Source of the DNA: Nitrosococcus watsonii C-113
GTDB taxonomy: Bacteria > Pseudomonadota > Gammaproteobacteria > Nitrosococcales > Nitrosococcaceae
Assembly: GCF_000143085.1 (NCBI RefSeq)
Contig: NC_014316.1
Coordinates: forward strand, 1 to 39,105
Reading direction: 5' to 3'
Length of the DNA stretch: 39,105 nt
The notes beneath the pieces were generated by a model. It was not told where the DNA came from and did not search any database. It was given only the letters and a program-made list of their open reading frames with translations. The position numbers were made by a program, and so were the translations under genes. Shown one piece after another: positions 3,979 through 36,076 of this stretch. Positions within the stretch are counted from its first letter, which is position 1. Each line of letters starts with the position of its first letter.

Positions 3979-4013
3979 TCAGCAAGCAAGTCATTGAACT
4001 AGGAGATTAAATC

Positions 4014-4943: not shown

Positions 4944-4954
4944 GTAGATACGAT

Positions 4955-4981: not shown

Positions 4982-5002
4982 GCTCTTAGGGGAAAATTCA
5001 CA

Positions 5003-5503
5003 ATGAGTACATTGAGATTATATGCGATCGCCGATGACTATCTGGAGGTTCTAGAAGGGCTAGCCGAGATAGATGATTTGCCCGCGGAAGTGATCACCGA
5101 CACTCTGGAAGGTTTGCAAGGCGCGTTCGAGGTAAAAGCTCGTCATGTGGCTGCTTATATACGCAGCCTAGAGGCAGAAGCTTCTGCTATTAAGGAAGCC
5201 CGTAAGGCGATGGAACAACGAGAGCGGTCCATGATGCGGCATGTCAAGAGACTAAGAGGATATCTCGAAACTCACATGGAACGCACGGGCATAACTAGGA
5301 TTAAGAGTCCCGAGTTATCGCTGAGACTCCAAGCAAGCCCGCCCAAGGTAGTGATCGATAATGAAGAGCAAGTTCCTGCAAGGTACAAGGAAATCCGAAC
5401 TGAGACCGTGCTTTTAAAATCCTCGCTTGGTGAGACCTTGAAAGATGGGGAGTATGTGCCTGGCGCCCACCTGGAGCAAAGTAAGCGGCTAGTGATTACG
5501 TAA
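5003..5503 (+). CDS. Siphovirus Gp157-family protein
   Basis: A 166-aa protein matching the Gp157 family of phage origin. It has a long helical N-terminal part with a coiled-coil segment (about residues 55-95, IRSLEAEASAIKEARKAMEQ and onwards), then the typical C-terminal beta-rich part: SLRLQASPPKVVIDN followed by VPARYKE and KSSLGETLKDGEYVPGA. AGGGGAAAA lies before the ATG. Gp157 genes in phages sit beside single-strand-binding and recombinase genes, and one member has been linked to phage resistance; the exact role is unknown. Here it closes the module that starts at 2255. Confidence 0.85.
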   Translation: MSTLRLYAIADDYLEVLEGLAEIDDLPAEVITDTLEGLQGAFEVKARHVAAYIRSLEAEASAIKEARKAMEQRERSMMRHVKRLRGYLETHMERTGITRIKSPELSLRLQASPPKVVIDNEEQVPARYKEIRTETVLLKSSLGETLKDGEYVPGAHLEQSKRLVIT

Positions 5504-6600: not shown

Positions 6601-7482
6601 TCATTTTTTGGCCCGGACTACGTGTATCCGATCTTTATCATCAAGACACCAAACTTCAAGAAACCCAATTGCTTTCATCTCATCCAATGCGGATTTGAGT
6701 TTAGGGCGGAAGAATCGCAGCTGCTTTTGTTCCGAGCCGCACCCTTGGTGGAGACTGGCTACCGATACTGGTTTAGGCTGCTTATGGCTGGCAAAATAGC
6801 CTTGCAGCCACTTTGCCAGGGGTTTTAGCTGACGCCGCTGCTTCCATTCCAGGCGGGTATAATGGACATTACCGAATAATTGCCGCATCTTGGGTTCCAC
6901 CCACACCCGCCAACGGTCCAGGCGGTTTCCCTGATCGTCCTCATAATCGAACATTCGGATCAGCGATAGGCTAATCCCTTTATTTAATCGTTTATTACGA
7001 ATTTTAAGTGCCGTGGCTTGCATTCGGGAGAGGCAGGTCATCAGCCGTTTATAACTCTGCCCGGAAGTGGACCAACCCAATGATTTGCAAAAGGAATAAG
7101 CGCTGAATTCTACCCACTCTCCTAATGGTTGGTGGCGAGCTAATTGCAATACGTACAGCCATACGTCTTGGTCGTCCTGGCGCAGCTCTTGCCCTCGGTA
7201 AATGATTTCCCCATCCCCAAGCACGACGATAGGAACGTCTTCATGGTATTCTCGCCGTTCCCTTCGGTTGCCGATATTGAACAGAGCCGAGCGCACAATC
7301 TCATTCGGGATTGCCCGTTCCCACTCTGGCCAAGAGGGCAGTATTAAGTTTTGTTCTTCCTCTCCTGTTGTCGAATTCTTTGAGGGGCTTGCTTTTTTTC
7401 GCTGCTTGGAACGGGCGGCAATCTTGTTAATTCGATCCGCTATTTGATTGGATGTAGCACGGTTTTTTTTGCTGCTGCTCAT
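6601..7482 (-). CDS. trfA: TrfA-family plasmid replication initiator
   Basis: A 293-aa protein with the TrfA family signature. After a basic, disordered N-terminus of about 45 residues comes NEIVRSALFNIGNRRERR, then GEIIYRGQELRQDDQDVWLYVLQLAR near residue 105, which is the most conserved TrfA block. Two winged-helix domains follow (SFCKSLGWSTSGQSYKRLM near 145; LKPLAKWLQGYFASH near 225). TrfA binds iterons as a monomer and recruits DnaA and the helicase. The gene reads toward the iterons, which begin directly after its stop codon. Its divergent neighbour is an Xre regulator, a likely copy-number controller. Length is close to the shorter TrfA forms. Confidence 0.85.
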   Translation of the reverse strand: MSSSKKNRATSNQIADRINKIAARSKQRKKASPSKNSTTGEEEQNLILPSWPEWERAIPNEIVRSALFNIGNRRERREYHEDVPIVVLGDGEIIYRGQELRQDDQDVWLYVLQLARHQPLGEWVEFSAYSFCKSLGWSTSGQSYKRLMTCLSRMQATALKIRNKRLNKGISLSLIRMFDYEDDQGNRLDRWRVWVEPKMRQLFGNVHYTRLEWKQRRQLKPLAKWLQGYFASHKQPKPVSVASLHQGCGSEQKQLRFFRPKLKSALDEMKAIGFLEVWCLDDKDRIHVVRAKK

Positions 7483-17330: not shown

Positions 17331-17648
17331 TTAGCGGCTCGCGCGGATCTCGAAGCGGACCCCCTCGCGCTGTTGGAGGTAGCCGAGTACCTGGAACAGG
17401 TTACGGGCATTCGGATTGCCCTTGGGTCCGAACATGCGCATGAGGCTCTTGGACGGAATCTGGGTTTCCGCCGAAAGGGTCTCAAAGCCGACCGTGGCGT
17501 TGATGTAGTCGCGCAGCACGGCTTTACCGGTGGTCATGTCGCCGGACAGTAGGGCTTCTACGCCCTCTTTAAGCAGGGCCTCGCGGAAGGCGGGATCACG
17601 GGCCACGCGGGCCTGAATCGTTTCTTTGAAATCACGGGTCAGCACCAT
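17331..17648 (-). CDS. HigA-type antitoxin/addiction-module regulator
   Basis: A 105-aa protein of the addiction-module antidote type that accompanies HigB-like toxins. LTRDFKETIQARVARDPAFR and EALLSGDMTTGKAVLRDYIN form the N-terminal helices; ETLSAETQIPSKSLMRMFGP is the helix-turn-helix, followed by NPNARNLFQVLGYLQQREGV, all typical. It starts three bases after the toxin stop codon, so the pair is an operon in toxin-first order. A short coding-like stretch (near 17230-17330) on the opposite strand reads HEDVCKALNQRYGRKAKAVK and may be a leftover of another gene; it has no start and I do not annotate it. Confidence 0.8.
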   Translation of the reverse strand: MVLTRDFKETIQARVARDPAFREALLKEGVEALLSGDMTTGKAVLRDYINATVGFETLSAETQIPSKSLMRMFGPKGNPNARNLFQVLGYLQQREGVRFEIRASR

Positions 17649-17651
17649 CGC

Positions 17652-17993
17652 TCAATCTTCCTCCTGCTGGCGTTGTTGATACGCTGCCCATAGGGTCTGT
17701 GCGGCCTCGATGTCTTTCTGCTGGCGTTGCTTGGTGCCACCGCCCAGCAGGATAATGAGCCAATCACCGTCCTTGCCAAAATAGACCCGGTATCCGGGGC
17801 CGAAATCGATTCGGTACTCAAAGACCCCGGCGCCGACCCCCTTGATATTAGAGACATTGCCTTGCGCCATCCGGATCAGGGCCGTCGCCACCTTGGCCGC
17901 TGCCTGGGCATTGAGCTTGTCGAACCATTTGGCGTAGGGGCTACGGCCCTTGGCGTCGATATATTCCCTGATCAGGGTAGATGCCACATACAT
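17652..17993 (-). CDS. HigB/RelE-ParE family toxin
   Basis: A 113-aa toxin of the RelE/ParE superfamily, HigB-like branch. YAKWFDKLNAQAAAKVATAL gives the helical hairpin, FEYRIDFGPGYRVYFGKDGD the central strands with the conserved arginines (Arg in GVFEYRID and GYRVYF), and LIILLGGGTKQRQQKDIEAA the last strand and lysine-containing tail. The family cleaves ribosome-bound mRNA or inhibits gyrase; the HigB-like partner favours the former. The antitoxin gene follows at once. Inverted repeats of CACGCATAATCCA (18018 and 18086) flank its promoter region and are candidate operators. Confidence 0.8.
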   Translation of the reverse strand: MYVASTLIREYIDAKGRSPYAKWFDKLNAQAAAKVATALIRMAQGNVSNIKGVGAGVFEYRIDFGPGYRVYFGKDGDWLIILLGGGTKQRQQKDIEAAQTLWAAYQQRQQEED

Positions 17994-18675: not shown

Positions 18676-19908
18676 ATGAAAAAAAGCAGCAGAGCTGTCG
18701 TTAGCACTACTCCACGGGAAGCTAATCTAAAGAGAAAACTGCGAGCGCATTTGCAATCCCTCGGATTCACCAAATCAGAAGATGGTGCCTTGCAAGTTCC
18801 GGGAAATGACAAAGGCATAATCCGCACGTTACACCGTGCACAAAGAGAAGAACGACTCCGGGCAAACCACGAATTTATTTCCCTCAAGGGCGAAAAACTG
18901 ATGCGGTTCTTTGCATTAGGCAAAGAAGTTAATCCGGAAAGAATATCGCCTATCCTTGAACGCGTATCGGCCGGAACGCTGCATGGCGACCTGTTCCGGC
19001 TCGCATCACTCACGTGGTCCGTCCCCGTCTCCAACGGCTTCGGCAGACGCCTACGTTACCTTGTCTGGGACGAAAACAACAGAAAACTGATGGGTCTTAT
19101 CGCCATCGGCGACCCGGTCTTCAATCTTTCCGTGCGGGACAAGCTCATCGGCTGGAATACGCACGACAGGAGCGCCCGCCTCGTCAATCTAATGGATGCC
19201 TACGTACTCGGCGCACTTCCCCCCTATAATGCCCTGCTCGGCGGGAAGCTGATAGCATGCCTACTGCGCAGCCGCGACCTTTATGACGACTTCGCAAATG
19301 CTTATGGCAGCACGACCGGAATAATCTCCCAGGAAGAGAAAAAAGCGCGCTTGCTGGCAATCACTACTTCATCGTCCATGGGGCGGTCTTCGGTCTACAA
19401 TCGCCTGAAACTCGCCGGAATTCAGTACCTCAAGTCTATAGGCTACACCGGCGGATGGGGGCACTTCCATATTCCCGACCGGCTCTTCGCGGAACTGCGT
19501 GACTATCTGCGCAACATTGACCACACCTACGCAGACCAGCACCGGTTCGGACAGGGGCCGAACTGGCGGTTGCGGACAACGCGGGTGGCGCTTTCGGCAC
19601 TTGGCTTTAAAGAAGACATGCTGCGGCACGGGATTCAGCGCGAGGTATTCTTTTGTCAACTCGCGGCCAACGCCGCCAAAATCCTGCAGACGGGGAAAGG
19701 CCAGCCTGACCTGAGGTCACTCCTATCCGCAAAGGAAATCGCCGAACTGGCATTGGACAGGTGGATGATTCCACGTTCGAAACGCAGACCCGGGTACCGG
19801 GACTGGGTGTCAAGTGACCTCGTGGGCTTGTTTGGCAATCAGGCCCGAATGCTACGCACCCAGATCAAGAAAGCGGAGATGGCCAAGAGAGGTATCGCGG
19901 GAGCATAG
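18676..19908 (+). CDS. druA: DruA-family protein (DUF4338), Druantia defence system
   Basis: A 410-aa protein of the DUF4338/DruA family, the hallmark of type I Druantia. Key blocks are GRRLRYLVWDENNRKLMGLI, IGDPVFNLSVRDKLIGW, LVNLMDAYVLGALPPYNALL, GGKLIACLL, then TTSSSMGRSSVYNRLKLAGI and YTGGWGHFHIP. The family is required for phage resistance but its reaction is unproven. I chose the ATG at 18676, which follows CAGGGGGAA. The in-frame ATG at 18610 lies inside the decayed nuclease fragment, so its 22 extra residues are probably not native. The next gene begins six bases after the stop. This is the first gene of a four-gene operon ending at 29425. Confidence 0.85.
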   Translation: MKKSSRAVVSTTPREANLKRKLRAHLQSLGFTKSEDGALQVPGNDKGIIRTLHRAQREERLRANHEFISLKGEKLMRFFALGKEVNPERISPILERVSAGTLHGDLFRLASLTWSVPVSNGFGRRLRYLVWDENNRKLMGLIAIGDPVFNLSVRDKLIGWNTHDRSARLVNLMDAYVLGALPPYNALLGGKLIACLLRSRDLYDDFANAYGSTTGIISQEEKKARLLAITTSSSMGRSSVYNRLKLAGIQYLKSIGYTGGWGHFHIPDRLFAELRDYLRNIDHTYADQHRFGQGPNWRLRTTRVALSALGFKEDMLRHGIQREVFFCQLAANAAKILQTGKGQPDLRSLLSAKEIAELALDRWMIPRSKRRPGYRDWVSSDLVGLFGNQARMLRTQIKKAEMAKRGIAGA

Positions 19909-19914
19909 CCAGCT

Positions 19915-22782
19915 ATGGGCGTGTCCTTAGACAAATGGCAGGATCACATGGAGCGGCACTTCTCGGCCCTCGCCGAACGGCGTGCCGTGTCGGGCCTGCC
20001 TATCTTTGCCCTTGAGCATGGTCTATCAGAAGCCGAATTTGACAAGATTTCAGGACAACTGCAATCGCGCCTGAACGCCGGCTTGAGGCTTGCCCCGCAC
20101 TGGTTGCTCTGGACAATCTATGCGGCCGAAAGGGGATACACCTATGAGGGCGGTGAGTACTGGCAATCGTTCGAAGAGGCAACGCCGGGGTGGGATTCCA
20201 GCGATAGGTATCGTGTCTCGGCATGGTTCTCGAAATTTCAGAAAGCATATAACGGCGTTATACCCTCAGGGCCGTGGGCGGCGCATTTCAGTATCATTGC
20301 TTGGCCGATCACACATGCTGTCCTACCTCGCTATCTGCAGCAACAATTTGCACGAACGCTCTATGACCTGAGGTACATGCTGGCCCGTCTGACTTCTATC
20401 GAGCCCGCAGAAATCGGTCGTTTGACTGCCGCCAATGTCTACTATGCCTCCACGCGTTTCGAGCAGTTCCTGCAACAGGAGGAACTGGTTGGGCGCATTG
20501 TCCTCGCTCTTCTTCACCAGGATCCGCGGGAAGGCGAAGAACCGCTTTTACCCGCAACCCTTGACCGCATTGTCGCCGATCTGGAGAAGGTCCGCTATGC
20601 GCGCGACTGGCTAAGAGAGACCAGCCGCGTCGTTACGGACCGATTCAAAGGAATAGGCCGAGGTAGCGGCCCCCGTCCGGTTGCCAGCGGCGCTGAATCC
20701 GCCGAAAGGAGGCTGAGGGAGGCCCGGCCAGATATCCGGCCGGACTTGCGCCTGCGTTACGCCGGCGACGGCCGGTGGACCCTGATCATTGATGTTCCGA
20801 GCTTCAAAGGGATCGCCGCGCTGAACCCAGAGGTGCGTCAGTTCCTCAAGCAAACGCGCTGCACACTGAACGGTGATCCCGGCAAAAAGCCCGCTGGCTG
20901 GGTTTTGTCCGGCAATCGCCGCGCCGTATTGAAGGAATGGCCCAACCCGACGAAGCCGCTCGTCAAGTTCGAGAAGGCCAATGGTACGGTCGATCATCTT
21001 CTCGAAAGCGAGTGCCGAATGAGTGATGGGCCGATCTGGCTCTTTCGCATCGGCCGCGACGGGATCGCCCGTGAGATCGCTGGTCGCATCGTCCGGCCGG
21101 GATACGAATACATTCTCGTCTCACGCGAGGCTTTCGAGGGTGTGCTTGACGGGATGGCTCCGTGCACAATCGATTGCAAGGATATCCAGGCGATCCGCAT
21201 CTCGGTGCCTGACAACGTTTCAGCAGACTACATTCACTGGTTGCAGCACCGAAACCTTGAGCTTGCGCGAACCATCCGCGTCTGGCCTGCCGGACTACCC
21301 GGGCGCCATTGGGACGGCGAGGGTCGCAGTGAATGGCTGACTACTGAAAAACCCTGCTTCAGGATCGTTCCGGACCATCCTGTCGACTCCTACCTTATCG
21401 CTCTTGATGGCGATACCGCTACGGCCATTCAGGCGCCTGCGTCCGGACAACCAACTTTTGTCCAACTGCCGCAACTTGCGCCCGGCAAACATATCCTGAC
21501 AGTGCGGGCGCGCCGCAGCGCCGCACTTGAAGATTTGGGGGCACCCCCGGCGCATGAGGGCTACCTTGAGTTACGCGTGCGCGAGCCAGAGCCATGGATA
21601 CCAAGTACGACTTCATATACTGGCCTTGTGGTTACCAGTACTCCCCATGATGCTACATTAGATGTTTTTTGGGAGAATGAACTTGACCTAACCGTGTTTG
21701 GTCCCGAAGGCCGACAGATTACACCAATCGTAAGTTTAGAGAATGCCAAGGGAGAAGAGGTTTATAACGCTCACGTTTGTCCGGTGATGGACCTACCGAT
21801 TTTGCCAAGTGTATGGCGAAAGCGGTTTCACGATTTTCTGAAGAGAGAAGAATCAGAGTGGCGCTACCTGGAGGCATCTTCCGGTACTCTCAGAATCGAA
21901 GGGCAAGAACTTGGTCTGTATACTCTACGCTTTAACCATGAAGTATTACCTGTTCGCTGGGTTCTTCGTCATAACGGTGAGCGCGTAACCATCCGACTAA
22001 TCGATGACAGTGGGCAAGAAGGAGAACAGCCGGAATGTCATTTTTTCAGTATGGAAACACCTACAAAGACGGAGTTTCTAAAAATTGAAAATGCACTTAC
22101 AGGGTTTGAAATCAAACCGCCAGGTGGGCTCTATCTTGTACGAAAAGGAAAGTTCGTAAACTCCATTATTGTGAGCGATGGCCTAAGCGAAGAAGGGCTA
22201 AAGGGGCTAGGCGTTAAGCCCACTTATGACCAAATTTCCCGTAACCCAGACTCTATCGTCCATCTTCTGAAAATTCTACATTCTTGGAAGATGGCTCGTC
22301 TCGCCGGACCCTTGGCAAATGCTAGGCGTCAACAAGTACATGACGGGATGCTTGTTCATATCTATGGTGCACTGGCGGGACGGGATTGGGGGTTTGCAGA
22401 ATCAAAGGCAAAGGTTAAGGGTAACTATAATTTGCAGCAGGTGATGACTCGCTTGGAGGCATTGCTTGATCGACGGAGTGGATTTCGGGTCGTTATACAA
22501 CGTGATGTCGCTACTATTCAAGGTGGGCGCAATGCTATTGCTGATTGGTATGCAGACCTCGCCTCACGTTTTGGTATCTGTTCGAACAAGACCCTCTGCG
22601 AATTGGCTATCGAACTAGCTAGCCGTCCTCACGACGTACCTAATCTTTATGAGGATAGGTTGCCCAGGCTTCTCAATCAGTTGATTGAGAAGCCTTTGAT
22701 TGTGCGTGGTGCCCGTTTTGCTGCGTTGAATTATACGTGTAATGATGCGGGATCCTCTGAATTGCTACCGGAGTGGGATTGA
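19915..22782 (+). CDS. Large Druantia-operon protein, DruB/C- or DruH-like
   Basis: A 955-aa protein between DruA and the DruD-position gene. Residues 1-250 are helical and tryptophan-rich. A linker near 250-285 leads to a beta-rich region: LRYAGDGRWTLIIDVPSF, then CTLNGDPGKKPAGWVLSGN, SDGPIWLFRIGRDGIAREI and AGRIVRPGYEYILVS. That style reminds me of the STY4851/ECs_5259 family and of type III DruH, though I cannot confirm it. Type I Druantia has separate DruB and DruC here, so a fusion is another option. The last third carries a helical tail (IYGALAGRDWGFAESKAKVK). At about 21597 codons switch from GC- to AT-ending, a sharp composition change inside one gene. Its TGA overlaps the next ATG. 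Confidence 0.65.
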   Translation: MGVSLDKWQDHMERHFSALAERRAVSGLPIFALEHGLSEAEFDKISGQLQSRLNAGLRLAPHWLLWTIYAAERGYTYEGGEYWQSFEEATPGWDSSDRYRVSAWFSKFQKAYNGVIPSGPWAAHFSIIAWPITHAVLPRYLQQQFARTLYDLRYMLARLTSIEPAEIGRLTAANVYYASTRFEQFLQQEELVGRIVLALLHQDPREGEEPLLPATLDRIVADLEKVRYARDWLRETSRVVTDRFKGIGRGSGPRPVASGAESAERRLREARPDIRPDLRLRYAGDGRWTLIIDVPSFKGIAALNPEVRQFLKQTRCTLNGDPGKKPAGWVLSGNRRAVLKEWPNPTKPLVKFEKANGTVDHLLESECRMSDGPIWLFRIGRDGIAREIAGRIVRPGYEYILVSREAFEGVLDGMAPCTIDCKDIQAIRISVPDNVSADYIHWLQHRNLELARTIRVWPAGLPGRHWDGEGRSEWLTTEKPCFRIVPDHPVDSYLIALDGDTATAIQAPASGQPTFVQLPQLAPGKHILTVRARRSAALEDLGAPPAHEGYLELRVREPEPWIPSTTSYTGLVVTSTPHDATLDVFWENELDLTVFGPEGRQITPIVSLENAKGEEVYNAHVCPVMDLPILPSVWRKRFHDFLKREESEWRYLEASSGTLRIEGQELGLYTLRFNHEVLPVRWVLRHNGERVTIRLIDDSGQEGEQPECHFFSMETPTKTEFLKIENALTGFEIKPPGGLYLVRKGKFVNSIIVSDGLSEEGLKGLGVKPTYDQISRNPDSIVHLLKILHSWKMARLAGPLANARRQQVHDGMLVHIYGALAGRDWGFAESKAKVKGNYNLQQVMTRLEALLDRRSGFRVVIQRDVATIQGGRNAIADWYADLASRFGICSNKTLCELAIELASRPHDVPNLYEDRLPRLLNQLIEKPLIVRGARFAALNYTCNDAGSSELLPEWD

Positions 22783-23864
22783 TGATTACCGAGCTTACTC
22801 CGCAAGACGTGGTTACTTACTGCCGGAATGTTGTTGGCGCGAACGTTGAGAGGGGCGGGATTGACGATATATTATTGGTTGGATTATTACGGCGAAGCGC
22901 GGGAATAATCTGCCCTTGTTCACGTGTTGCTCTTCGAGCGTCTGTAACAGAAAGCCTATCCTATTTACATTCTGATGACGATGATCTATCTGGTCGCCTC
23001 GATAATCTAATCGAGGTTCTGATTGTAACCGGCGATTTATTGGAATTGTCTGATGTTGTGGTGGATGATCCAGATGTCAAGGAAACATGGGTTTTTGCTG
23101 CACCGCCTTCATTTGTGGTTCGTCAAAATGGAATCGCATTCTTAGCAGGTATTGTCCCAGACCAGGATAGCTTCCTATCTTCTGATCTAGATAGCCGAAT
23201 CGTGTATTCGAGTAGTGCGCGTTTCATTGAGCCTAAACCCGGTGAAAACCTAGAAGAAGAATTGAAAGCTGAGGGAATTCACCAAATAGAAGAAGCGACC
23301 TGGCTTAGGTCTCCGAGAAGCCAACCCCCAAAGCATTTGATTGATCGGTATAAACAACAATTGGCTTTAGAGTCGATTTGTGGGCCAGTCAATGGACTTA
23401 AAATTCTCGATTCATCTATCAAATCTACATATTACAAAGGCCGCTGGGTTGAACTCCTAAATCAAACAGGTGCATTTATAGCCAGAAGACCTCAAGAATT
23501 TGGTGCTCCTTTATGGTGCTTTGTTGAAGTTGCTGGGGGGCAACTGCAACGAGTGATAGACCTCCCTCCTCAAAACTATCGTTGGCGGGGGTGCGATGCT
23601 GCATGGCACTTACAGATGGCAATAGACAGTTACCAAAGGATGCCACAACGATATAGGTTGAGCCGCATTGAAGAATCGGTTCGTTTTGACTTTTTTTCAC
23701 CACTACCACTGTGGGCGCAACGAAGGCTAATGGTGGTTGGTCGAGAGGTTCCTCGGGAAGGCAGTCTCCTCTCATACGAGATTCCTGCGTCAGAAGCTGA
23801 TGAAGAGGAGGGGTTTTTACAACAAAACCTGTGGCTGGAGCCCGTTGAAAAAGAAAATCGTTAG
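22782..23864 (+). CDS. Druantia-operon protein in the DruD position
   Basis: A 360-aa protein that starts at the ATG sharing its A with the upstream TGA. An upstream in-frame GTG at 22773 is possible but less likely. I recognise no catalytic motif. The N-terminal third is acidic (DDDDLSGRLDNLIEVLIVTG). Later come YYKGRWVELLNQTGAFIARR and DAAWHLQMAIDSYQRMPQRY, and the acidic end SEADEEEGF. It is the third gene of the operon and precedes the helicase by 11 bases. Type I systems have a gene of similar position and size (DruD), so I infer that role. Third positions are AT-rich throughout, like the flanking gene ends, which sets it apart from druA. Confidence 0.6.
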   Translation: MITELTPQDVVTYCRNVVGANVERGGIDDILLVGLLRRSAGIICPCSRVALRASVTESLSYLHSDDDDLSGRLDNLIEVLIVTGDLLELSDVVVDDPDVKETWVFAAPPSFVVRQNGIAFLAGIVPDQDSFLSSDLDSRIVYSSSARFIEPKPGENLEEELKAEGIHQIEEATWLRSPRSQPPKHLIDRYKQQLALESICGPVNGLKILDSSIKSTYYKGRWVELLNQTGAFIARRPQEFGAPLWCFVEVAGGQLQRVIDLPPQNYRWRGCDAAWHLQMAIDSYQRMPQRYRLSRIEESVRFDFFSPLPLWAQRRLMVVGREVPREGSLLSYEIPASEADEEEGFLQQNLWLEPVEKENR

Positions 23865-23875
23865 AGGACCAGATA

Positions 23876-26800
23876 GTGCAAACAATTAAAGAAACTATAG
23901 AGAATTTACACGGATCTCTGCGCGACTACATCGAAGCGACCTACCATATCAGCGCACCATCTTTAATTTCGCAGCGGAAAGTCCTTCTCGATACTGATGG
24001 TGTAATACATCGTACTCCTTATCTTGAATCAACGCCGAAGTACCAAACGGGCAACGCATTCGCATCTATTGATGGTTTGCCGTCAGCTGCTCAGAAACTT
24101 TTCTTGCGATTAAGTGCTCCCGAAGGCGATCTTCCACGACTGATCTATGACCCGCCTTATAAGCATCAAGCCGAGTCCTTGCAATATAGTCTTATTGATA
24201 GGAAAAACCTAGTTATCATGACTGGAACAGGCTCGGGAAAGACCGAATCCTTCCTGCTGCCGATTCTTGGCAAGTTCGCGATGGAGGCGAAGACCCGTCC
24301 GGCAGTCTTCACGGAACAGCCTGCCATGCGCGCGCTCGTCATGTATCCCATGAACGCGCTCGTGAACGACCAACTCGGCCGCCTGCGGGCGTTGCTCGGC
24401 GATCCGCGGCTTGTCCAGATGTTCAAAGAATGGTGCGGCCGCCCACCGCGATTTGCACGCTACACAAGCAGAACGCCCTATGCCGGGGTTCGCACGAGCA
24501 AGAAGGATTCTGCTCGGTTGCAGTCCTTTGACAGCTTCTATGTCGATGTTCTCCGCCGTGTGGAAAGCGACGACCCGGAAGAGAAAGAACAGGCTGTAAA
24601 ACTCTTGGATGCGCTCAAAGAGCGCGGAAAATGGCCCGCCAAACCTGACCTTAAGGCGTGGTTCGGAGAAAAAGGCAGCGCTTGGCAGGACCGGAAGACC
24701 GGCGAGTTTGTCAGGGCAGTGACCCTGCCGGATGACTCCGAATTGTTGACACGTCATGAAGTCCAACTCGCGCCGCCGGACTTGCTTGTCACCAACTATT
24801 CCATGCTCGAATACATGCTCATGCGCCCGATTGAGCGGCCCATCTTCGACAGGACGCGGGAGTGGCTGGCGAAGAACCCCGACGAGAGCTTTCTTGTCGT
24901 GCTTGATGAAGCGCACTTGTATCGCGGCGCAGCCGGTGCGGAAATCGGCCTCCTGCTTAGGAGACTGCGCGACAGGCTCGGAGTTCCCGAAGAACGGTTT
25001 AGGGTAATCTGCGCCACAGCAAGTTTCAAAGATGCTGCGTACGCCCCGGAATTTGGCGCGCAACTCTCCGGTATCACACCCGATACATTCGTACCCATCG
25101 AAGGCACTCTCGACCTGAAAGAGGAGGTAGGGGTCGGGACGAATCGCGATGCCGAGGTGCTGTCCGGCATCGATCTGCGCACATTTTACGAGGTAAACAC
25201 TGACAAAGCTCGTATGGCGACGATAAAGTCCTTGCTTGATTATAGGGGCGTCACTGGTGCCGAGACCACCGAGAGCGCGCTTTTCGATGCCCTTGGCTCG
25301 CTCGGCCCAATGGGCGCGCTCATCAATGCGACAATGAAGGAAGCCCGGCCGATCGCCGAACTCGGCAGCTTCCTGTTCGCAGACGACGTGCCGGCACACA
25401 TGGTGGATAAAGCCGTCACCGTACTGATGACACTAGGCAGTGTTGCAAGGCCAGAACCGAAATTGCCGGGGCTTTTGCCCTGTCGTGTTCATAACTTCTT
25501 CCGCGGTCTTCCGGGACTCTGGGTTTGCATGGACCCGGAATGCAGCGAACTCGCCGAGGACCAGCGCAGCAGCATCTGCGGAAAAATGTATTCGCAGCCG
25601 ATGGACGAATGTAGCTGTGGCGCTCGGGTACTGGAACTGTTTACCTGCCGAAATTGCGGCACGGCCTATGCCCGTGCCTATACAGATGACGTCGATACGC
25701 CGCGCGCTCTTTGGCCAGAGCCCGGCGAGCAGTTGCGGATGGCAAGCGGCGAGACCAATCCGCTCTTAGCGCTCGACCTCTTGCTTGAGCAACCGGCACA
25801 CGATGATGCGGCAGAACCTGCGGACTACGATCTGGAAACAGGCCAACTAAACCCGGCCACGACCGGCCCTCGTACGCGAACGGTCTATATCAGGCAGGAG
25901 CGTCTTGCCAACGCTGCCGACGATAAAAACGATAACGATCCCAGCTTCGAGTCACGCGGCCAATTCAAGCCGTGCGCGGTGTGCGGTAAGATGGCGCGTT
26001 CCGGTCGAAGCTACGTCCAGGACCATCAAACAAAAGGCGACCAGCCGTTCCAGGCGCTCCTCGCACGCCAAATCCAGATTCAGCCCCCCGGACCGCAAGA
26101 AGCGACGCGCTTTGCACCGTTACGCGGCCGCAAGGTACTCGCGTTTTCCGATTCCCGGCAGGTAGCAGCGCGACTGGCACCGAATATTCAAATGTATTCA
26201 GAGAGAGATTCCCTTCGGCCACTTATCATTAGTGGGTTCGCATGGCTTCAAGAGCAGGATGTACTGAAAAATCATCTCAGCCTTGACGACTTGTATTTTG
26301 GTGCTTTGATTGCATCAAAGAGGTTAAATGTGCGCTTGCGCCCGGAAATGCACGACCACGAAAGTTTTGATGCAGAAGTAATAGTCGAAAGGGCAATAAA
26401 ATCGGGCGATTTAAATAATCCAATGTCTCTATTAGATCTGTTGCTGGATTTACGTTCCCATCACCCGCCGCATTCTTTGCTCAGTAGTATGCTAACAACA
26501 TTGACTGACAGGTTCTGGGGAATGGAGCCACTAGCGCTCGCGACGCTCAGAGAAAAGAATCGCCGTAGCAGTAAGATTCTTGGTCTTCCGCCGATACCGG
26601 ACATTGCTGAAACCGACAAGACAAAGCTTGCACTTGCTCGCTTTTGGCTCCGTTGCTGGGCCGGTTTCCGCATTGCCCAAATGCCTGATGACTGGGTCGA
26701 TCGACCGACCTCTGAAGGTTTCCGGGCTCAGTCACGAAAACCAAAATCCAAGATTAAGGCAGTGAATTCTGTGATCTCGGATAAATTGGCACGAAAGATC

Positions 26801-29425
26801 TTTTGGGAAAAATGGTCGCCGGAATTACTGGCTTGCTTTACCCGTTCCAAAGCAGGTGGAAATGCGTACCTGAATGGCAGTGAACTATCTCTTGAATTCG
26901 ATGGAGACTGGATGCATTGTCCGAGTTGCAAGTCCGTTCACCGTCCCATTCCCGGAATTGAACGTTGCCTTGACTGTGGCAGTGATGCTGTATCGGCGCT
27001 CGCCCCCGATACCGACCCGGTTTTTCTTGCCCGCAAAGGTTTTTACCGCAAACCCGTCACAGAAGCTCTTGAAGAGCCGCCGCGCGAGCCCATGGCACTT
27101 ATCGCTGCCGAGCACACCGCACAACTCAACGCGCCACAGAATGAGGATGTGTTCTCCAAGGCAGAATTAAATGAACTCCTGTTCCAGGATATCAAGCTGG
27201 CCGGAAACGGGATTGGAAGCCGCCCAACCGCTATTGACATCTTGTCGAGCACGACGACGATGGAAGTCGGTATCGACCTCGGGGCGCTGTCCGGTGTGGC
27301 CCTGAGGAACATGCCGCCCGGGCGCGCAAACTACCAGCAGCGAGCAGGCCGCGCGGGACGCCGCGGCAATACTGTGGCGACGGTGGTGGCGTTTGGCAGC
27401 GCCGACAGCCATGACGAGCATTATTTTACTGAGCCGGACGAAATGATCCGGGGAGATGTGGTTGACCCGAAACTAGCCCTCGATAATCCCGAGATTGTTC
27501 GCCGGCACATCCGGGCGTTCCTGCTGCAAAACTATCACCAGGACCGGTTGCCAGTAGTAGACCCAGACCAGCCGCATGATCTGTTCTCTGTTCTAGGGAG
27601 TGTTGCAGGTTTTAGGCGTACGGACTCGGTTTTGAACCGGGACGACTTTGCCGAATGGCTTGCCAGAAACGAGAATGTTTTGCGTACGCGCATAGCAAAA
27701 TGGATTCCGGCGGAGTTGTTGGAAGAGGACCGCGTGGAGCTAATCAACGGTTTCGTCACTGATTGTCTTAAGGCGGTGGACGAGGCAATTGCCCCCGATC
27801 CCGGAGAAGAAGTCGAGGACGACGAAGAAGATAGCAGGGGTGATGAGGAGGTAGCGGAAGAAGGAGAAGAGCGGCCTCAACAGGGATCGAACCTGGGCAA
27901 GTTACTCGACCGGCTCCTGTATTGTGGGAAACTCCCTCGTTATGCCTTCCCGACCGATGTCGCCACATTCCACGTGTTCGACCGCGATCGCTCTTCCCGG
28001 TTCCGGCACATCATGAAGTTCGCGCCTTCGCAGGGTCTACCGATTGCGCTGTCGCAGTACGCACCGGACAAACAGGTCTGGATATCCGGAAAATGCTATA
28101 CCTCTGGTGCAATTTATTCGGTGATGAAGGATGATCGCTTCCACGCCTGGGAGTCAAAGCGGCTCTACATGGAATGTAGCGATTGTGGCTTCTCCAGGAC
28201 TTTCGACATAGGCGAGGCCACGCGCGACGAAACCAGGAATTGCGATGCCTGTGGCGGCGAGGACACGTTCGGTCCAGCGCGCTACTGGATGCGGCCGCCG
28301 GGATTTGCACACCCGATTAGCGTGGAAGAAGTGACGTCGCCAGACGAAATTCCCGAAACCAGCTATGCCACGCGCGCCAAGCTCACGATGGGTACACCCG
28401 GCGACGATGAGGACTGGACCGAAGCCAATGAGCGTGTTCGGAGCCTGAAGACCCGTCGGCACCTACTGGTTTCGAACACCGGACCACAGCACGAGGGTTA
28501 TACCTATTGCGTCAAGTGCGGCCGAATAGAGGCCAGTAACACGCCGAACCCGATCCTTGCCGCGCCTCACCGCAAGCCATTTCCGGACGATGATGATAAG
28601 CAAATGTGCGACGGGACCAGCCCCACTCGTCATTTAGTTCTTGGAACGGACTTCATTACGGATATCGCCCTGTTTTCGATGCGTGTGGCGGCCCCGCTTA
28701 AACTGAAGCCGGGTCACTATTCGACGGACGTGGCGCTACGCACCGTCAGTGAAGCTCTGGCCAAGGCGGCCTGCCAGTTGCTGGAGATCGAACCGGGCGA
28801 ACTGATGGCGGAGTATCGGCCGGCGCTCACCCCGGCGGGAAAGAATGGGCTAGAGGCTGAGATATTCCTCTATGACACGCTGCCGGGAGGCGCTGGTTTT
28901 GCAAGCCAGTTCGCAACTCGCGGGCTCGAATTATTTCAGCGCGCGTTCTACCTACTGAAGACCTGTCCCGAGGACTGTGATGCATCCTGCTACAGGTGCT
29001 TGCGAAGCTTCAAGAATAAGTTCGAGCATAGGCTGCTCGACCGGCACGTCGGCGTTGAACTTCTGGAATACCTGCTCGCCGGGCAGCATCCCGGCTTCAA
29101 CACACAGCGTCTGAAGAATTCGATCGAACTTCTGCTCAATGACCTCCTGCGTCGCAATGAAGGCGTCGTTACTTTCCATGAAAATGCAGAGATCAAGTAT
29201 GGAGTGGGAAAGACCGCGAAAGCGCCAATCCTTGCTGAATATGAAGGGAAGAAATTTGTCATTGCGCTATCAAGACCGTTGACCGCCGGGCATCCTTCGG
29301 ATCCACTTATTGCGGATTTGCGCGACAGCAGCACCGAGTACCAGGTCATCGTCGAGAATGAGCTTGTCGTCCGCGGCAACCTTCCGACGGCGACACGCAC
29401 GGTCTATCAGCAGATCACCGAGTGA
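23876..29425 (+). CDS. druE: DruE-family DEAH-box helicase with DUF1998 domain
   Basis: An 1849-aa superfamily-2 helicase. The Q-type motif YKHQAESL (95-102) precedes Walker A GTGSGKT (117-123); MYPMNALVNDQLGRLR follows. VVLDEAH (about 341-347) is motif II, ATASF motif III, FSDSRQVAARL motif IV, STTTMEVGIDLGALSG motif V and QQRAGRAGRRG (about 1155-1165) motif VI. Cysteine pairs occur near 540-600, 700, 1020-1045 and 1430-1465. The C-terminal DUF1998 region ends in CPEDCDASCYRCLRSFKNKF, a four-cysteine zinc site. An acidic insert lies near 1303-1335. Such large DUF1998 helicases define DruE. The GTG start follows AGAGGACC. Composition shifts to AT-rich before the Walker A and again at about 26180-26985. 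Confidence 0.85.
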   Translation: MQTIKETIENLHGSLRDYIEATYHISAPSLISQRKVLLDTDGVIHRTPYLESTPKYQTGNAFASIDGLPSAAQKLFLRLSAPEGDLPRLIYDPPYKHQAESLQYSLIDRKNLVIMTGTGSGKTESFLLPILGKFAMEAKTRPAVFTEQPAMRALVMYPMNALVNDQLGRLRALLGDPRLVQMFKEWCGRPPRFARYTSRTPYAGVRTSKKDSARLQSFDSFYVDVLRRVESDDPEEKEQAVKLLDALKERGKWPAKPDLKAWFGEKGSAWQDRKTGEFVRAVTLPDDSELLTRHEVQLAPPDLLVTNYSMLEYMLMRPIERPIFDRTREWLAKNPDESFLVVLDEAHLYRGAAGAEIGLLLRRLRDRLGVPEERFRVICATASFKDAAYAPEFGAQLSGITPDTFVPIEGTLDLKEEVGVGTNRDAEVLSGIDLRTFYEVNTDKARMATIKSLLDYRGVTGAETTESALFDALGSLGPMGALINATMKEARPIAELGSFLFADDVPAHMVDKAVTVLMTLGSVARPEPKLPGLLPCRVHNFFRGLPGLWVCMDPECSELAEDQRSSICGKMYSQPMDECSCGARVLELFTCRNCGTAYARAYTDDVDTPRALWPEPGEQLRMASGETNPLLALDLLLEQPAHDDAAEPADYDLETGQLNPATTGPRTRTVYIRQERLANAADDKNDNDPSFESRGQFKPCAVCGKMARSGRSYVQDHQTKGDQPFQALLARQIQIQPPGPQEATRFAPLRGRKVLAFSDSRQVAARLAPNIQMYSERDSLRPLIISGFAWLQEQDVLKNHLSLDDLYFGALIASKRLNVRLRPEMHDHESFDAEVIVERAIKSGDLNNPMSLLDLLLDLRSHHPPHSLLSSMLTTLTDRFWGMEPLALATLREKNRRSSKILGLPPIPDIAETDKTKLALARFWLRCWAGFRIAQMPDDWVDRPTSEGFRAQSRKPKSKIKAVNSVISDKLARKIFWEKWSPELLACFTRSKAGGNAYLNGSELSLEFDGDWMHCPSCKSVHRPIPGIERCLDCGSDAVSALAPDTDPVFLARKGFYRKPVTEALEEPPREPMALIAAEHTAQLNAPQNEDVFSKAELNELLFQDIKLAGNGIGSRPTAIDILSSTTTMEVGIDLGALSGVALRNMPPGRANYQQRAGRAGRRGNTVATVVAFGSADSHDEHYFTEPDEMIRGDVVDPKLALDNPEIVRRHIRAFLLQNYHQDRLPVVDPDQPHDLFSVLGSVAGFRRTDSVLNRDDFAEWLARNENVLRTRIAKWIPAELLEEDRVELINGFVTDCLKAVDEAIAPDPGEEVEDDEEDSRGDEEVAEEGEERPQQGSNLGKLLDRLLYCGKLPRYAFPTDVATFHVFDRDRSSRFRHIMKFAPSQGLPIALSQYAPDKQVWISGKCYTSGAIYSVMKDDRFHAWESKRLYMECSDCGFSRTFDIGEATRDETRNCDACGGEDTFGPARYWMRPPGFAHPISVEEVTSPDEIPETSYATRAKLTMGTPGDDEDWTEANERVRSLKTRRHLLVSNTGPQHEGYTYCVKCGRIEASNTPNPILAAPHRKPFPDDDDKQMCDGTSPTRHLVLGTDFITDIALFSMRVAAPLKLKPGHYSTDVALRTVSEALAKAACQLLEIEPGELMAEYRPALTPAGKNGLEAEIFLYDTLPGGAGFASQFATRGLELFQRAFYLLKTCPEDCDASCYRCLRSFKNKFEHRLLDRHVGVELLEYLLAGQHPGFNTQRLKNSIELLLNDLLRRNEGVVTFHENAEIKYGVGKTAKAPILAEYEGKKFVIALSRPLTAGHPSDPLIADLRDSSTEYQVIVENELVVRGNLPTATRTVYQQITE

Positions 29426-30193: not shown

Positions 30194-31132
30194 CTACAAC
30201 TTCGCCACCACCCCGGCCATCCGCTCCTCGCTCACATGGGTGTAAATCTGGGTGGTGGATAAATCCACGTGCCCCAGCAAGGCTTGGATGTCCACCAGCT
30301 CAGCCCCGGATTCCAATAGCCGCGTGGCGTAAGTATGACGCAGCTTGTGGGGCGTGACGGGCTTGTCGATGCCCGCCCGTTCAATGAGCCGCCGCAAATA
30401 GGCCCGCGCCGCATGGGGTCCAGGCGGTTTTCCCCCCGGGGCTTTGGCGAACACGAAATCGTCCCCTTCCCTGCCCTGTAGCCAAGCCCCGAATACTTGG
30501 CCGAAGGCTTCCGGTAGTGGCACCAGCCGTTCCCGGTTGCCCTTGCCGATGATCCGCACGGATTTAGCGATCCCGTTCATCACCCGCACATCCCGGACTT
30601 TCACGGCCAGAGCTTCGCTGATTCGCAGGCCGCTGTTGAGAATAAGGCCAAACAGGACATCATAGCGACGCCGGACCGCTTTAATATGCTCCTGGGTACG
30701 CCCGAAGATATTCTCGGGTAAATTGTCTATCCGCTGGGTCGCTTCCTGGAGCGCTTGTTGCTCTTCCTTCTCTAGCCAGACGGGGATGCGATAGGGACGC
30801 TTGGGTTTATCAGCGAGATAGATGGGGTCTGATTCCACCAGGGCATTCTTCATGGCCCATTTGTAGAACGAGCCTAGGCAACTGGAGCGGCGGGCCACGA
30901 TGTGCGCCTTGGCGCCCCGCTCCCGCATCTGCCAGGCCACAAACTTCTCGGTGTCTGCATGGGTGGCCTGACACCAGTCCTTGCCCGCCTCTTCTAGCCA
31001 GCGGCCCCAAATTCCCAGGTCCGAGTTGTAGGCATAGCAGGTCCCCTGACTGTACCCCTTGGCGTAATGCAGATGCGCCAGGAAGTCTTTTCGTGCCTGC
31101 CAGAAATCAACGGCTTTTTTCTCCATTGTCAC
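30194..31132 (-). CDS. XerC/D-like tyrosine recombinase
   Basis: A 312-aa tyrosine recombinase. The SAM-like core-binding domain covers residues 8-95, and the catalytic domain follows. Catalytic residues are Arg170 (NSGLRISEAL), Lys197 (IIGKGNRERLVPL), His262 and Arg265 (TPHKLRHTYATRLLE), His288 (LLGHVDLS) and nucleophile Tyr297 (TTQIYTHV). The length and absence of an arm-binding domain are like Xer or small integron-type recombinases, so plasmid dimer resolution is the likely job. The start is GTG at 31132 with GGAGG upstream; ATG at 31126 is also possible. A candidate core site lies at 31349-31376, some 220 bases upstream. Confidence 0.85.
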   Translation of the reverse strand: MTMEKKAVDFWQARKDFLAHLHYAKGYSQGTCYAYNSDLGIWGRWLEEAGKDWCQATHADTEKFVAWQMRERGAKAHIVARRSSCLGSFYKWAMKNALVESDPIYLADKPKRPYRIPVWLEKEEQQALQEATQRIDNLPENIFGRTQEHIKAVRRRYDVLFGLILNSGLRISEALAVKVRDVRVMNGIAKSVRIIGKGNRERLVPLPEAFGQVFGAWLQGREGDDFVFAKAPGGKPPGPHAARAYLRRLIERAGIDKPVTPHKLRHTYATRLLESGAELVDIQALLGHVDLSTTQIYTHVSEERMAGVVAKL

Positions 31133-31843: not shown

Positions 31844-32698
31844 TTAAAATCGCCCGCCACCCTCTTCCTCTAGGGTATTAATTAATTTATCTATCTGCTC
31901 GCGTAATTTAAGCAACGTATAAAAATGCTCGCTGTTTAATTCGTGAGGAGCAATCCCCGCCAGTTTCTTGGTAAATACTTTTCCAGCGGAAAGCAGTTGC
32001 ATGGCTGGAGAAGAAGGCGTCTTGCTGGTTATTTCCTCTTTTTTTGCTTTTCTAGCAGTCCGCACGGTGGCCCCTGCCTTTAATTCTTCCCAAAGATTCA
32101 ATTGTTCGTCTTTGTTTTTTATCCTAGTCAGCTCAATAAGCGCTGACTTCGACACCCCAGAGTCGGACGTCCGACTCCGATACTCCTCTTTAATGCCTTG
32201 AGGCAGCGTGTTGAGGCGCAAAAGCTCATTCACCGTATTTCTAGCTTTGCCGATGACCTTACTTACCTCATTTTGAGTGTACGCATGGCGGCTCATAATT
32301 TGTGCTAACGCTTCCGCTTCTTCAAGTGGATTGAGGTTTTCGCGTTGAAGATTTTCAATCAAGGCGATCTCATCACGGTTCCCCTGGGTAACGATGGCTG
32401 GGATGGTCTCACGCCCAAGCCGCTTAAAAGCCCGCAACCGGCGCTCACCGGCCACCACCATGTAACCCTCTTTATTTTCCGGATCGGATGCAACAGCGAT
32501 AGGCTGAATTAATCCGTGTTGCTCTATGGAGGCGGCAAGCTCTTGCAAAGCCGTCTCGTCAAAGGTTTTACGGGGTTGATCGGGATTCTCCCTGAGATTG
32601 CTGAGATCCACCTCTATGATGCGCGGCAGATCCAGGGAGGTATGAAAAAATACGTTTCGATTAATCTTGCCGGCAAGGGGTGAAATTTTTTTAGCCAT
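31844..32698 (-). CDS. parB: ParB-family plasmid partition protein
   Basis: A 284-aa CTP-dependent partition protein. The N-terminal domain includes ENPDQPRKTFDETALQELAA, then QHGLIQPIAV and GYMVVAGERRLRAFKRLG (the Gly-Glu-Arg-Arg nucleotide motif), and ENLQRENLNPLEEAEALAQI. The helix-turn-helix is YTQNEVSKVIGKARNTVNEL. It binds parS and activates ParA. Start and the parA stop overlap by 8 bases, so they are coupled. Residues 174-180 (RSRTSDS) are encoded by the palindrome at 32160, which puts a candidate parS in frame inside the gene. The C-terminus is a likely dimerisation helix. Confidence 0.9.
   Translation of the reverse strand: MAKKISPLAGKINRNVFFHTSLDLPRIIEVDLSNLRENPDQPRKTFDETALQELAASIEQHGLIQPIAVASDPENKEGYMVVAGERRLRAFKRLGRETIPAIVTQGNRDEIALIENLQRENLNPLEEAEALAQIMSRHAYTQNEVSKVIGKARNTVNELLRLNTLPQGIKEEYRSRTSDSGVSKSALIELTRIKNKDEQLNLWEELKAGATVRTARKAKKEEITSKTPSSPAMQLLSAGKVFTKKLAGIAPHELNSEHFYTLLKLREQIDKLINTLEEEGGGRF
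32160..32177. promoter_or_regulatory. parS: 18-bp palindrome inside parB, candidate intragenic parS
   Basis: An exact copy of the palindrome at 31745. The flanks also match in inverse orientation (GGAGTCGGACGTCCGACTCT shared over 20 bases). Two identical 18-mers 415 bp apart within a partition cassette are very unlikely by chance. Confidence 0.65.
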
Positions 32699-33464
32699 AG
32701 TGCGTCACCAGATGATTAGCTAGTTGGAAGTAATTCTGCGCCGCAGGGGCATTGGGGAGGAGTTCAAGGGTAGAACGCCCCTCCGCGGCTGATTTATCAA
32801 AACTGGTGCTGCGGCTGATAGGATCGAAGACATGAATATCCGGTTCCAAAGAGTTGCGAAGTTCGGCAAGGGCTTCGTTGTCGTGACTATTGCGCACATC
32901 GAACATGGTCGGCAGTACACCGATGATCTCAAGGCGCGGGTTGGGGCGTCGTCTCACGTCTTCAATAGTTTCTAACATGAGAGGAATACCCATGATTGAG
33001 AGATAGTCCGTCTTGACGGGTATCAATACCGCATCGGCTGTAGTAAGCGCATTGATAGTAAGCAGCGCGAGCGTTGGCGGACAGTCAATGAGGATAAAAT
33101 CGTAATCATTTTCGATTTCGCGCAGTTTTTCCTTAAGGATAGAAATTGAGTCCCACTCCCGGGCTAATTCCGGTTCCGCCTTAGCTAATTGGATGCTTGA
33201 AGGAAGGAGAGCGGGGGTTCCGGTGATCACCAGATTAGCAAGACCACCGGCTTTTATGAGTCCCCAATAGATGGTGTGTTTTTGCTGCTCTAGTACTCTG
33301 GGATCGTGGCCACAGTAGAGGGTGAGACTTGCCTGGGGGTCCATATCTACTGCTAGCACCCGTTTTCCCTGCTGAGAGAGCGCATAGGCTAGGTTGACCA
33401 CCGTAGTGGTTTTTCCTACGCCTCCCTTTTGGTTTGCTAAGGCAATGGTTGTAGTTTTTGTCAT
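32691..33464 (-). CDS. parA: ParA-family partition ATPase
   Basis: A 257-aa Walker-type partition ATPase. The deviant Walker A is KGGVGKTT (residues 13-20) with both lysines; VLAVDMDPQASLTLYCG is the A' motif and FILIDCPPTLALLT the Walker B. VLIPVKTDYLSIMG and GVLPTMFDVRNSHDNE are further family blocks. It has no N-terminal DNA-binding extension, so it belongs with the short ParA (type Ib or chromosomal-like) forms, where regulation is by ParB or ParA itself. I set the start at the ATG at 33464, preceded by GGTGACTAAG; upstream residues lack homology. It drives plasmid segregation with parB and the parS-like palindromes. Confidence 0.9.
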   Translation of the reverse strand: MTKTTTIALANQKGGVGKTTTVVNLAYALSQQGKRVLAVDMDPQASLTLYCGHDPRVLEQQKHTIYWGLIKAGGLANLVITGTPALLPSSIQLAKAEPELAREWDSISILKEKLREIENDYDFILIDCPPTLALLTINALTTADAVLIPVKTDYLSIMGIPLMLETIEDVRRRPNPRLEIIGVLPTMFDVRNSHDNEALAELRNSLEPDIHVFDPISRSTSFDKSAAEGRSTLELLPNAPAAQNYFQLANHLVTHYG

Positions 33465-33762
33465 CTTAGTCACCTTGTATAACAAATATGGCAAGGAAAG
33501 CAACTTCCAAAAATACGGCGATGGAAACCATATTGTCCTTACCTGCAATTGACAAGGAGTTCGAAGAACCGGATGGTGATAGGGATGATCCAGGTAAGCT
33601 TAATGGTATTTATCTGATGATCGTATTCTGATGAAAGCCAAAAGTGATATGTATTGTGAAATTAAGCACTTCCACTGAGATGACGATAACTAAGCGAGAG
33701 CAAGGCCTTTTCCTTCCAGGAACGGGTTATCTTAAGCCTAGATTGTTATTCAAGGTCATAAT

Positions 33763-35196: not shown

Positions 35197-36012
35197 CTAT
35201 GGACAATTCCTTACGCCTCTACACTGAGGAAATGCGATGCAACCCCAAAATTTTTTACCGGCATTCCTCCCTTTTCGAGCTTTTCGGAGCACCATCGATT
35301 TACCGCAAAGAGGGCAATTGGGATCGACTTGAGTAGATTGTGCTCGCTTAGGAACGATGCCTGGATCAGTTTTGCTGTGCTTTTGAACTTCACTTATCCG
35401 CTCCAGCAGCGTGGTCCCCTCTACCAACTCCAGCGCTTTTCCTTTGGCAAAGGCCCTAGCGTCAGGAGTGAATTGACCACAAGTGACGAGGATTCCTCGA
35501 GTAGCGTTCTCACCAGCCACCACACCGTAGAGTTCGCGCACCTTAGCGACCCCCACCTGCCTAGTTTTCCATTGTTTGCACTGAACGAGAATGACCTCAC
35601 CTTGCCGTCGTAATACCAGATCAACACCGCCATCGGCGCCTTCACCTCCTTTTTCTTCCACCCTATACCCTTGCCGCCGGTAGCACTCGCCTACCAGTTT
35701 TTCAAAACTCTGCCAACTCATGGCGCGAATCGAATCAAGGCCCGATTGACGATTCAGCAATTTCCGGCGAGACCGCTTGCCGAGTTGCGCAAAGGCGCCA
35801 GTTAACAAGACAAAACCCGTTACCCAAGGCGCGAAGAGTGGCCCCAGTGGTTCAAATGGTTTTAAGAACAAATTGCTTTCATCAATGTAGGCGGGTAGGC
35901 CAAAATTAAGAGCGGCATATGCCGTGCCTGCCACTAGGAGACTGACCCACCAAGGTGTCCGCAGAAAGATGCCGTACATACTTTCCACGATATTGGATCG
36001 GCGACGGGCCAT
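35197..36012 (-). CDS. Membrane-anchored Mrr-type nuclease with zinc finger
   Basis: A 271-aa protein. Two membrane segments near the N-terminus (WWVSLLVAGTAYAALNFGLP and PLFAPWVTGFVLLTGAFAQL) tether it. The Mrr catalytic domain follows: FEKLVGECYRRQGYRVEEKG, GADGGVDLVLRRQGEVILVQ and CKQWKTRQVGVAKVRELYGV, with the Asp and Gln-x-Lys pair of the PD-(D/E)XK fold. A C-terminal topoisomerase-type zinc finger starts CPLCGKSMVLRK and ends WGCIAFPQCRG. I set the start at 36012 since the upstream frame opens only with TTG. It probably cleaves modified or foreign DNA near the membrane. It has no methylase partner, as expected for Mrr types. Confidence 0.8.
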   Translation of the reverse strand: MARRRSNIVESMYGIFLRTPWWVSLLVAGTAYAALNFGLPAYIDESNLFLKPFEPLGPLFAPWVTGFVLLTGAFAQLGKRSRRKLLNRQSGLDSIRAMSWQSFEKLVGECYRRQGYRVEEKGGEGADGGVDLVLRRQGEVILVQCKQWKTRQVGVAKVRELYGVVAGENATRGILVTCGQFTPDARAFAKGKALELVEGTTLLERISEVQKHSKTDPGIVPKRAQSTQVDPNCPLCGKSMVLRKARKGRNAGKKFWGCIAFPQCRGVRNCP

Positions 36013-36076
36013 ATATCTGTGCCTCTTGCGTTGAATTTTAAGAAATATCGGCAATACTGCTAATTAGTTCAGCGGC

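Follow-up and report, generated by a model that had tools for sequence, protein, structure and literature searches.

A plasmid-borne Druantia-type operon of Nitrosococcus watsonii with an uncatalogued 955-residue protein in the place of DruB and DruC

The nearest described relatives of the operon examined here are the type I (DruABCDE) and type III (DruH-DruE) Druantia systems. Type I DruE carries a C-terminal Vsr-type nuclease that is predicted to be inactivated (PMC12458937). Type III DruE is a helicase-nuclease whose substrate is DNA with 3' ssDNA, and its partner DruH has N- and C-terminal helical regions around a core and three Ig-like domains (PMC13192584). In M. smegmatis the minor tail protein Gp25 of a phage activates DruH-DruE (PMC13316683). 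For E. coli, proteins of the virion or baseplate have been implicated as triggers (PMC13192584). Types II and IV are built on DruF with DruM/DruG or DruL (PMC8565338). As canonical type I references we used the operons of E. coli 165 (L055; DruA 404, DruB 548, DruC 627, DruD 347 and DruE 1836 aa) and P. putida pKF715A (L040).

The DNA analysed, hereafter the window, is a stretch of 39,105 bp that makes up the entire contig C2 of the three-contig, 3.37-Mb assembly of N. watsonii C-113. Positions 18676–29425 hold a compact operon of four genes on the + strand, separated by 6, –1 and 11 bases, all with open frames:

18676–19908, + strand: druA, 410 aa, DUF4338/DruA domain (PADLOC PDLC00002 (DruA1), 720 bits; Pfam DruA, 270 bits)
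19915–22782, + strand: x955, 955 aa, an uncatalogued core subunit conserved upstream of druD (no PADLOC, Pfam, NCBIfam or PHROGs match)
22782–23864, + strand: druD, 360 aa (PADLOC PDLC00010 (DruD1), 490 bits; PDLC00012, 388 bits)
23876–29425, + strand: druE, 1849 aa, YprA-like DEAD/DEAH helicase with an MrfA Zn-binding domain (PADLOC DruE1 (PDLC00013), 2068 bits; Pfam DEAD, Helicase_C and MZB)

The ATG chosen for druA at 18676 lies near where most homologues begin aligning; if translation started at the ATG of position 18610, further upstream, the protein would have 432 aa. The druD ATG overlaps the x955 stop codon by one base, with a GTG at 22773 as an alternative start (363 aa). An earlier note, made from the sequence alone, had called DruA and DruE clear and the architecture unlike DruABCDE. 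The DruA1 and DruE1 scores confirm the first point, and the absence of DruB and DruC, with X955 there instead, confirms the second. It had also set both the 955-aa and the 360-aa gene against the expected DruB, DruC and DruD, which was wrong for the latter. The 360-aa gene is DruD, as the DruD1 score shows, so that only DruB and DruC are ‘missing’ and X955 is the sole oddity.

A Walker A motif and a DEAH box are visible in the DruE translation, and relatives of DruE with solved structures exist (e.g. 9tu7). The PADLOC models next in line, DruE2 (641 bits) and DruE3 (556 bits), score far below DruE1. Pfam found helicase and Zn-binding domains only in DruE, and recognised a nuclease in neither DruE nor X955. 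Type II/IV models were absent from the best 25 of the 38 matches of DruE, and PADLOC assigned none of the seven other proteins examined from 17.3 to 31.1 kb to type II/IV genes.

Like the canonical type I operons, the window has a DruA (70–73% identical), a DruD1-family protein and a helicase recognised by the DruE1 model, with the shared genes in the same order. It differs from them in having X955 where they have DruB and DruC, and in a DruE that is just 33% identical. The best DruD models also differ, PDLC00010/12 for the window and PDLC00009 for both canonical systems; the E. coli DruD reaches just 15.7 bits on PDLC00010. PADLOC models of DruB and DruC matched nothing in the operon. The earlier note had suggested that the long gene might be a fused DruBC; a fusion that had diverged far enough would make this an ordinary type I system. 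X955 does occupy exactly the position of druB and druC, and its best match to DruB falls repeatedly in overlapping stretches (residues 422–450, 426–462 and 409–492). However, the hhalign probability was 0.4% with DruB and 0.1% with DruC, in a test weakened by profiles of two sequences each. The DruB score of 22.1 barely exceeded the maximum of 60 column shuffles (21.6), and a wider X955 profile scored 23.7 with DruB, inside its own shuffles (maximum 26.5). Moreover, P. putida DruC gave weak SMC-like coiled-coil matches, whereas the middle of X955 is predicted to be beta-rich. With no significant similarity by hhalign and a faint DruB signal about as strong as shuffled columns, the fusion was not supported, and we consider it improbable.

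In genome-wide searches, the DruC model (PDLC00006) matched 163 of 398 genomes, with the matches listed at no more than 30.2 bits and in coiled coil, which is uninformative. The DruB model (PDLC00005) matched 3 of 398 and 4 of 246 genomes, always partially and at up to 27.4 bits; two of the matched loci were opened (L065 and L066) and showed no Druantia match. Neither DruB nor DruH was found in viral contigs.

To see whether the layout recurs, an alignment of three DruD sequences was run against GTDB genome contigs, which gave 29 loci. An X955 open reading frame lies immediately upstream of DruD in 27 of these, or 27 of the 28 in which this could be checked: L022 is uninformative because its sequence begins at DruD, and L034, a DruD-DruE locus, has no detectable X955 in the 3.6 kb upstream. 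Hosts of the X955-DruD arrangement include Alphaproteobacteria, Acidobacteriota, Armatimonadota and Gemmatimonadota, among others. With a G216 locus, one from Sinorhizobium medicae and three viral contigs added, the X955 profile matched 32 of 34 loci, and profiles of DruB, DruC and DruH matched none of the 34. Since 29 of the 34 were found via DruD, the set says nothing on how frequent X955 is without DruD. Narrower searches recovered few relatives. In the window's own class, DruD1 (PDLC00010) was found in 2 of 369 genomes, the window's own and G216. A search with the single X955 protein matched one of 95 relatives, namely itself. X955 was not found in phages; in viral contigs it was found in none with the single sequence and in three with the alignment.

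Because X955-DruD-DruE recurs in related loci, the layout is not a matter of chance. One alternative would be that a type I system has decayed or been rearranged and survives on this plasmid by chance. The lineage does decay: four S. medicae plasmids carry x955 relatives, and in the one examined (pMl4, L002) an IS3 element interrupts druE, while x955 is frameshifted and shortened. In the window, however, all frames are open, and the layout is preserved across several phyla, which makes decay a very improbable explanation here. X955-DruD-DruE is a conserved layout rather than a degraded type I system, and has the look of a genuine variant that went unnoticed. On pMl4, no DruA match was seen within 22.6 kb; the other three plasmids with x955 relatives are its sister plasmids.

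DruA is the less constant member. A short DruA lies upstream of X955 in 20 of the 29 loci (the L029 copy is cut by a contig edge). Five others have a long DruA, confirmed as PADLOC PDLC00001 in L030 and L036. It is on the opposite strand in four of them (downstream in L030, L032 and L037, upstream in L036). In L035, where druD and druE are about 4 kb apart, it lies upstream and shares their strand. The remaining four show no DruA: L011, L022 and L023, which are cut by contig edges, and L034.

The DruA of the window is 69.8% identical to that of the E. coli type I system and 73.3% to that of P. putida, and the corresponding DruE identities are 32.5% and 33.6%. Within the X955 group, the two proteins have about equal identities (DruA/DruE 61.5/64.9% for L020 and 56.1/55.6% for L033). 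A slow DruA clock is therefore no explanation, as the two diverge at a similar pace inside the group, and DruA appears to have moved between two Druantia architectures. In DruA trees (rows of at least 395 aa, without L029 and the long DruA), the window, E. coli and P. putida sequences grouped together with support of 99/97 and 97/98, L061 being included in the former tree only. An AU test, run with two canonical DruA, was nevertheless compatible with all 22 X955-type DruA forming one clade (p = 0.168), so that the trees fit more than one direction and number of transfers. The DruE of X955 systems came together apart from canonical type I DruE (28 rows, support 99) in a quick tree that carried long-branch warnings. 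These rows, of at least 1800 aa, were 26 from loci in which X955 was seen plus L022 and L034; L011, L017, L025, L027, L029 and L035 were left out. The identities support an exchange of DruA well, and the discordance between DruA and DruE opens modular exchange in Druantia to testing.

X955 itself matched nothing in PADLOC at E values up to 0.1, and as a single sequence nothing in Pfam, NCBIfam, PHROGs or PDB sequences; its profile gave one chance-level match among PDB sequences (4ezb, E = 0.69). Four divergent relatives matched no Druantia model in PADLOC at E values up to 1, with one chance-level match to BrxA. An AlphaFold2 model of the full-length protein (26 sequences) was of modest quality (pLDDT 73.7, pTM 0.44). 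It predicts a helical N-terminal domain, a beta-rich Ig-like centre and a helical C-terminal domain:

19915–20724, + strand: N-terminal helical domain, residues 1–270 (domain modelled alone with AlphaFold2, pLDDT 83.5, pTM 0.80)
20743–22194, + strand: predicted beta-rich centre, residues about 277–760 (full-length AlphaFold2 model)
21265–21594, + strand: predicted Ig-like sandwich, residues 451–560 (VIA match to Caf1M, 4az8_A, Z 9.2, rmsd 2.4, 89 aligned; also Foldseek)
22246–22743, + strand: predicted C-terminal helical domain, residues about 778–943 (AlphaFold2 model)

A second Ig-like sandwich probably lies at about residues 570–680 of the model. For the N-terminal domain, even the best PDB fold match (Z 3.8) was not significant. 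The Foldseek lists included many Ig/FnIII arrays, phage tail proteins included, all with low TM-scores. Ig-like folds are very widespread and carry little weight for the function of X955.

Outside Druantia, relatives of X955 lie in DISARM-like loci. X955-like proteins were found on plasmids of Rhizobium, Azospirillum, Leisingera and Paracoccus, and over about 745 columns X955 aligned with proteins of DISARM-like loci at an hhalign probability of 100% (E = 2e-42, A7 set). At the sequence level X955 is clearly homologous to these uncatalogued proteins, which links two defence families by a non-helicase subunit. In the Rhizobium locus L004, the X955-like gene is followed by a DpdE/DrmD-like SNF2 helicase gene, scoring below NCBIfam cut-offs, with DrmA-like, DrmB, UvrD and NERD genes nearby. 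In the Azospirillum locus L003, the stretch ends too early to show a partner gene. Neither locus showed a DruE match beyond the DrmA-like helicase. L006, like these Rhizobium and Azospirillum plasmid loci, is DISARM-like with an uncatalogued X955-like gene.

Two larger Druantia-like arrays, on a Leisingera plasmid (L041) and on Paracoccus pTAV4 (L039), carry a DruE1-type helicase of 2063–2094 codons that is 37.6–38.3% identical to the window DruE. Like the window they combine DruA, here the long form, with an X955-like gene; unlike it, they have the X955-like gene on the opposite strand. The Leisingera array also shows a faint DruD-like match (22 bits), an annotated DpdE/DrmD-like SNF2 gene (below NCBIfam cut-offs) after the X955-like gene, and a NERD gene. 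It is a possible intermediate, and together the two arrays may bridge Druantia and the DISARM-like systems.

The relation to type III is less direct. As in DruH-DruE, a large multidomain protein precedes DruE, with a predicted helical–Ig-like–helical order and a weak profile match at the N terminus; unlike it, the window has DruA and DruD besides, and no DruH model matches X955. The helicase is of the DruE1 rather than the DruE3 type by its scores, and shares 23% identity with the type III DruE that the host itself carries. If X955 were a DruH homologue, the operon would be a true type I/type III hybrid in which a DruH-like sensor and DruE are joined by DruA and DruD.

Features recalling DruH had been proposed in the earlier note, which is half right: the predicted order of parts is the same as that described for DruH (PMC13192584), and the N-terminal match exceeds all nulls tried. 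The N-terminal domains align colinearly, X955 residues 14–243 with DruH residues 19–262, at an hhalign score of 28.0. The corresponding nulls reached 20.0 (maximum of 60 column shuffles), 17.8 (reversed profile) and 23.5 (best of 26 natural segments). A combined X955 profile followed the same N-terminal diagonal (26.2). Used by itself, the DISARM-like set aligned with DruH along a stretch that overlaps this diagonal (18.7, E = 0.088). The full-length score, 32.1, was also above the maximum of 60 shuffles (27.6). However, the hhalign probability of the N-terminal match was just 8.9%; full-length comparisons gave 0.5–4% with an inconsistent aligned region, and the middle and C-terminal parts of X955 fell inside the nulls. 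The X955 N terminus also scored 22.0 against the DruH C terminus. In HMM searches no DruH sequence rose above the best decoy with X955 profiles, nor the reverse, and the PADLOC DruH models matched neither X955 nor its four divergent relatives. With decoys scoring as high, the HMM searches did not establish X955 as a DruH. Common descent of X955 and DruH is possible on the sequence comparisons, and the hybrid is an alternative to be taken seriously, though we lean against it.

The DruH profile comprised 11 sequences, without the broken copy of the host and a truncated one from Acinetobacter (L086); 7 of 19 DruH-matched plasmid records were used. The DruH structure 9tud is present among the PDB sequences. 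It was not among the 50 fold matches listed per search (entries to 2026-04-08), which does not speak against a DruH fold.

The host chromosome has a type III system of its own (G000:C1:2139820-2149439; L077:9821-19440). One TAA interrupts its druH, leaving open frames of 425 and 683 codons, adjoined by a DruE-like frame of 2098 codons. In E. coli S1-NGR-02-A (L069), a chromosomal DruH-type gene is cut beside an IS3 element and followed by an 8280-bp STY4851/ECs_5259 gene, perhaps a DruH-DruE fusion.

We read DruA-X955-DruD-DruE as a Druantia variant directed against phages, with X955 as the putative sensor or adaptor for the DruE helicase, and assign this reading a probability of about 0.6. 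The analysis shows the gene content, the recurrence of the layout, the identity of DruD and DruE, the discordance between DruA and DruE and the homology of X955 to DISARM-like proteins, and it predicts the Ig-like centre of X955. Defence activity, sensing and a DNA-acting subunit are what we infer for the operon. X955-DruD-DruE would form the heritable core, with DruA as an exchangeable extra. DruE, to judge from its studied relatives, would be a helicase motor on infection-linked DNA. X955 would substitute for DruB and DruC, most likely as the sensor or adaptor. By analogy with DruH, whose published triggers are phage structural proteins (PMC13316683, PMC13192584), X955 is likely the sensor and DruE the motor. 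The putative Ig-like array may bind a structural protein of the phage, in line with the proposal made for type III DruH, and the helical ends may relay the signal to DruE or DruD.

A wider proposal, which we regard as rather unlikely, is that X955-DruD-DruE constitutes a Druantia type of its own, in which DruA can be swapped. X955 would then belong to a superfamily of Ig-array helicase partners that includes the DISARM-like proteins, this variant and, more remotely, DruH, and that serves YprA-family defence as a general sensor recognising phage tail or virion proteins. If such a type exists, canonical DruABCDE has DruA in common with the X955 lineage.

The variant is partly catalogued. The PADLOC DruA1 model, DruD1 models 10 and 12 and the DruE1 model match the lineage strongly (DruE1, 2068 bits here and 2465 bits in canonical DruABCDE), and its members are therefore probably already counted as type I. 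The earlier note had allowed for the layout being in the catalogues already, which holds for DruA1, DruD1 and DruE1 but not for X955, which no PADLOC model matches and which has neither model nor name in the libraries searched. Probably, then, two systems with different subunits are pooled under a single DruE1-based name. We found no description of the DruA-X955-DruD-DruE layout in the literature searched, supplements aside. DruB, DruC, DruD and DruH are absent from the main text of the YprA tree paper (PMC12458937); the X955-lineage DruE may fall within a Druantia clade of its tree.

The surroundings of the operon agree with the earlier description of the locus as plasmid-borne. No overlap was found between the ends of contig C2, and a TrfA-like replication gene together with ParAB makes it very probably a plasmid. 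A toxin–antitoxin pair lies directly upstream of the operon (17331–17993), on the opposite strand:

6601–7482, – strand: TrfA-like plasmid replication initiator (Pfam TrfA, 158 bits)
17331–17648, – strand: partner gene of the toxin, small, named by position only (no PADLOC, Pfam or NCBIfam match)
17652–17993, – strand: HigB-type toxin of the pair beside the operon (NCBIfam TIGR02683, 103 bits)
30194–31132, – strand: XerC/D-like tyrosine recombinase downstream of the operon (Pfam Phage_integrase; NCBIfam XerC, 202 bits, below cut-off)
31844–33548, – strand: ParB and ParA partition genes (Pfam)

Elsewhere in the window, positions 35200–36054 encode a restriction endonuclease domain of the Mrr type together with a zinc ribbon of the topoisomerase type, and a row of DUF932, AAA_24 and Siphovirus Gp157-like genes at 3131–5500 places phage-like genes on the plasmid.
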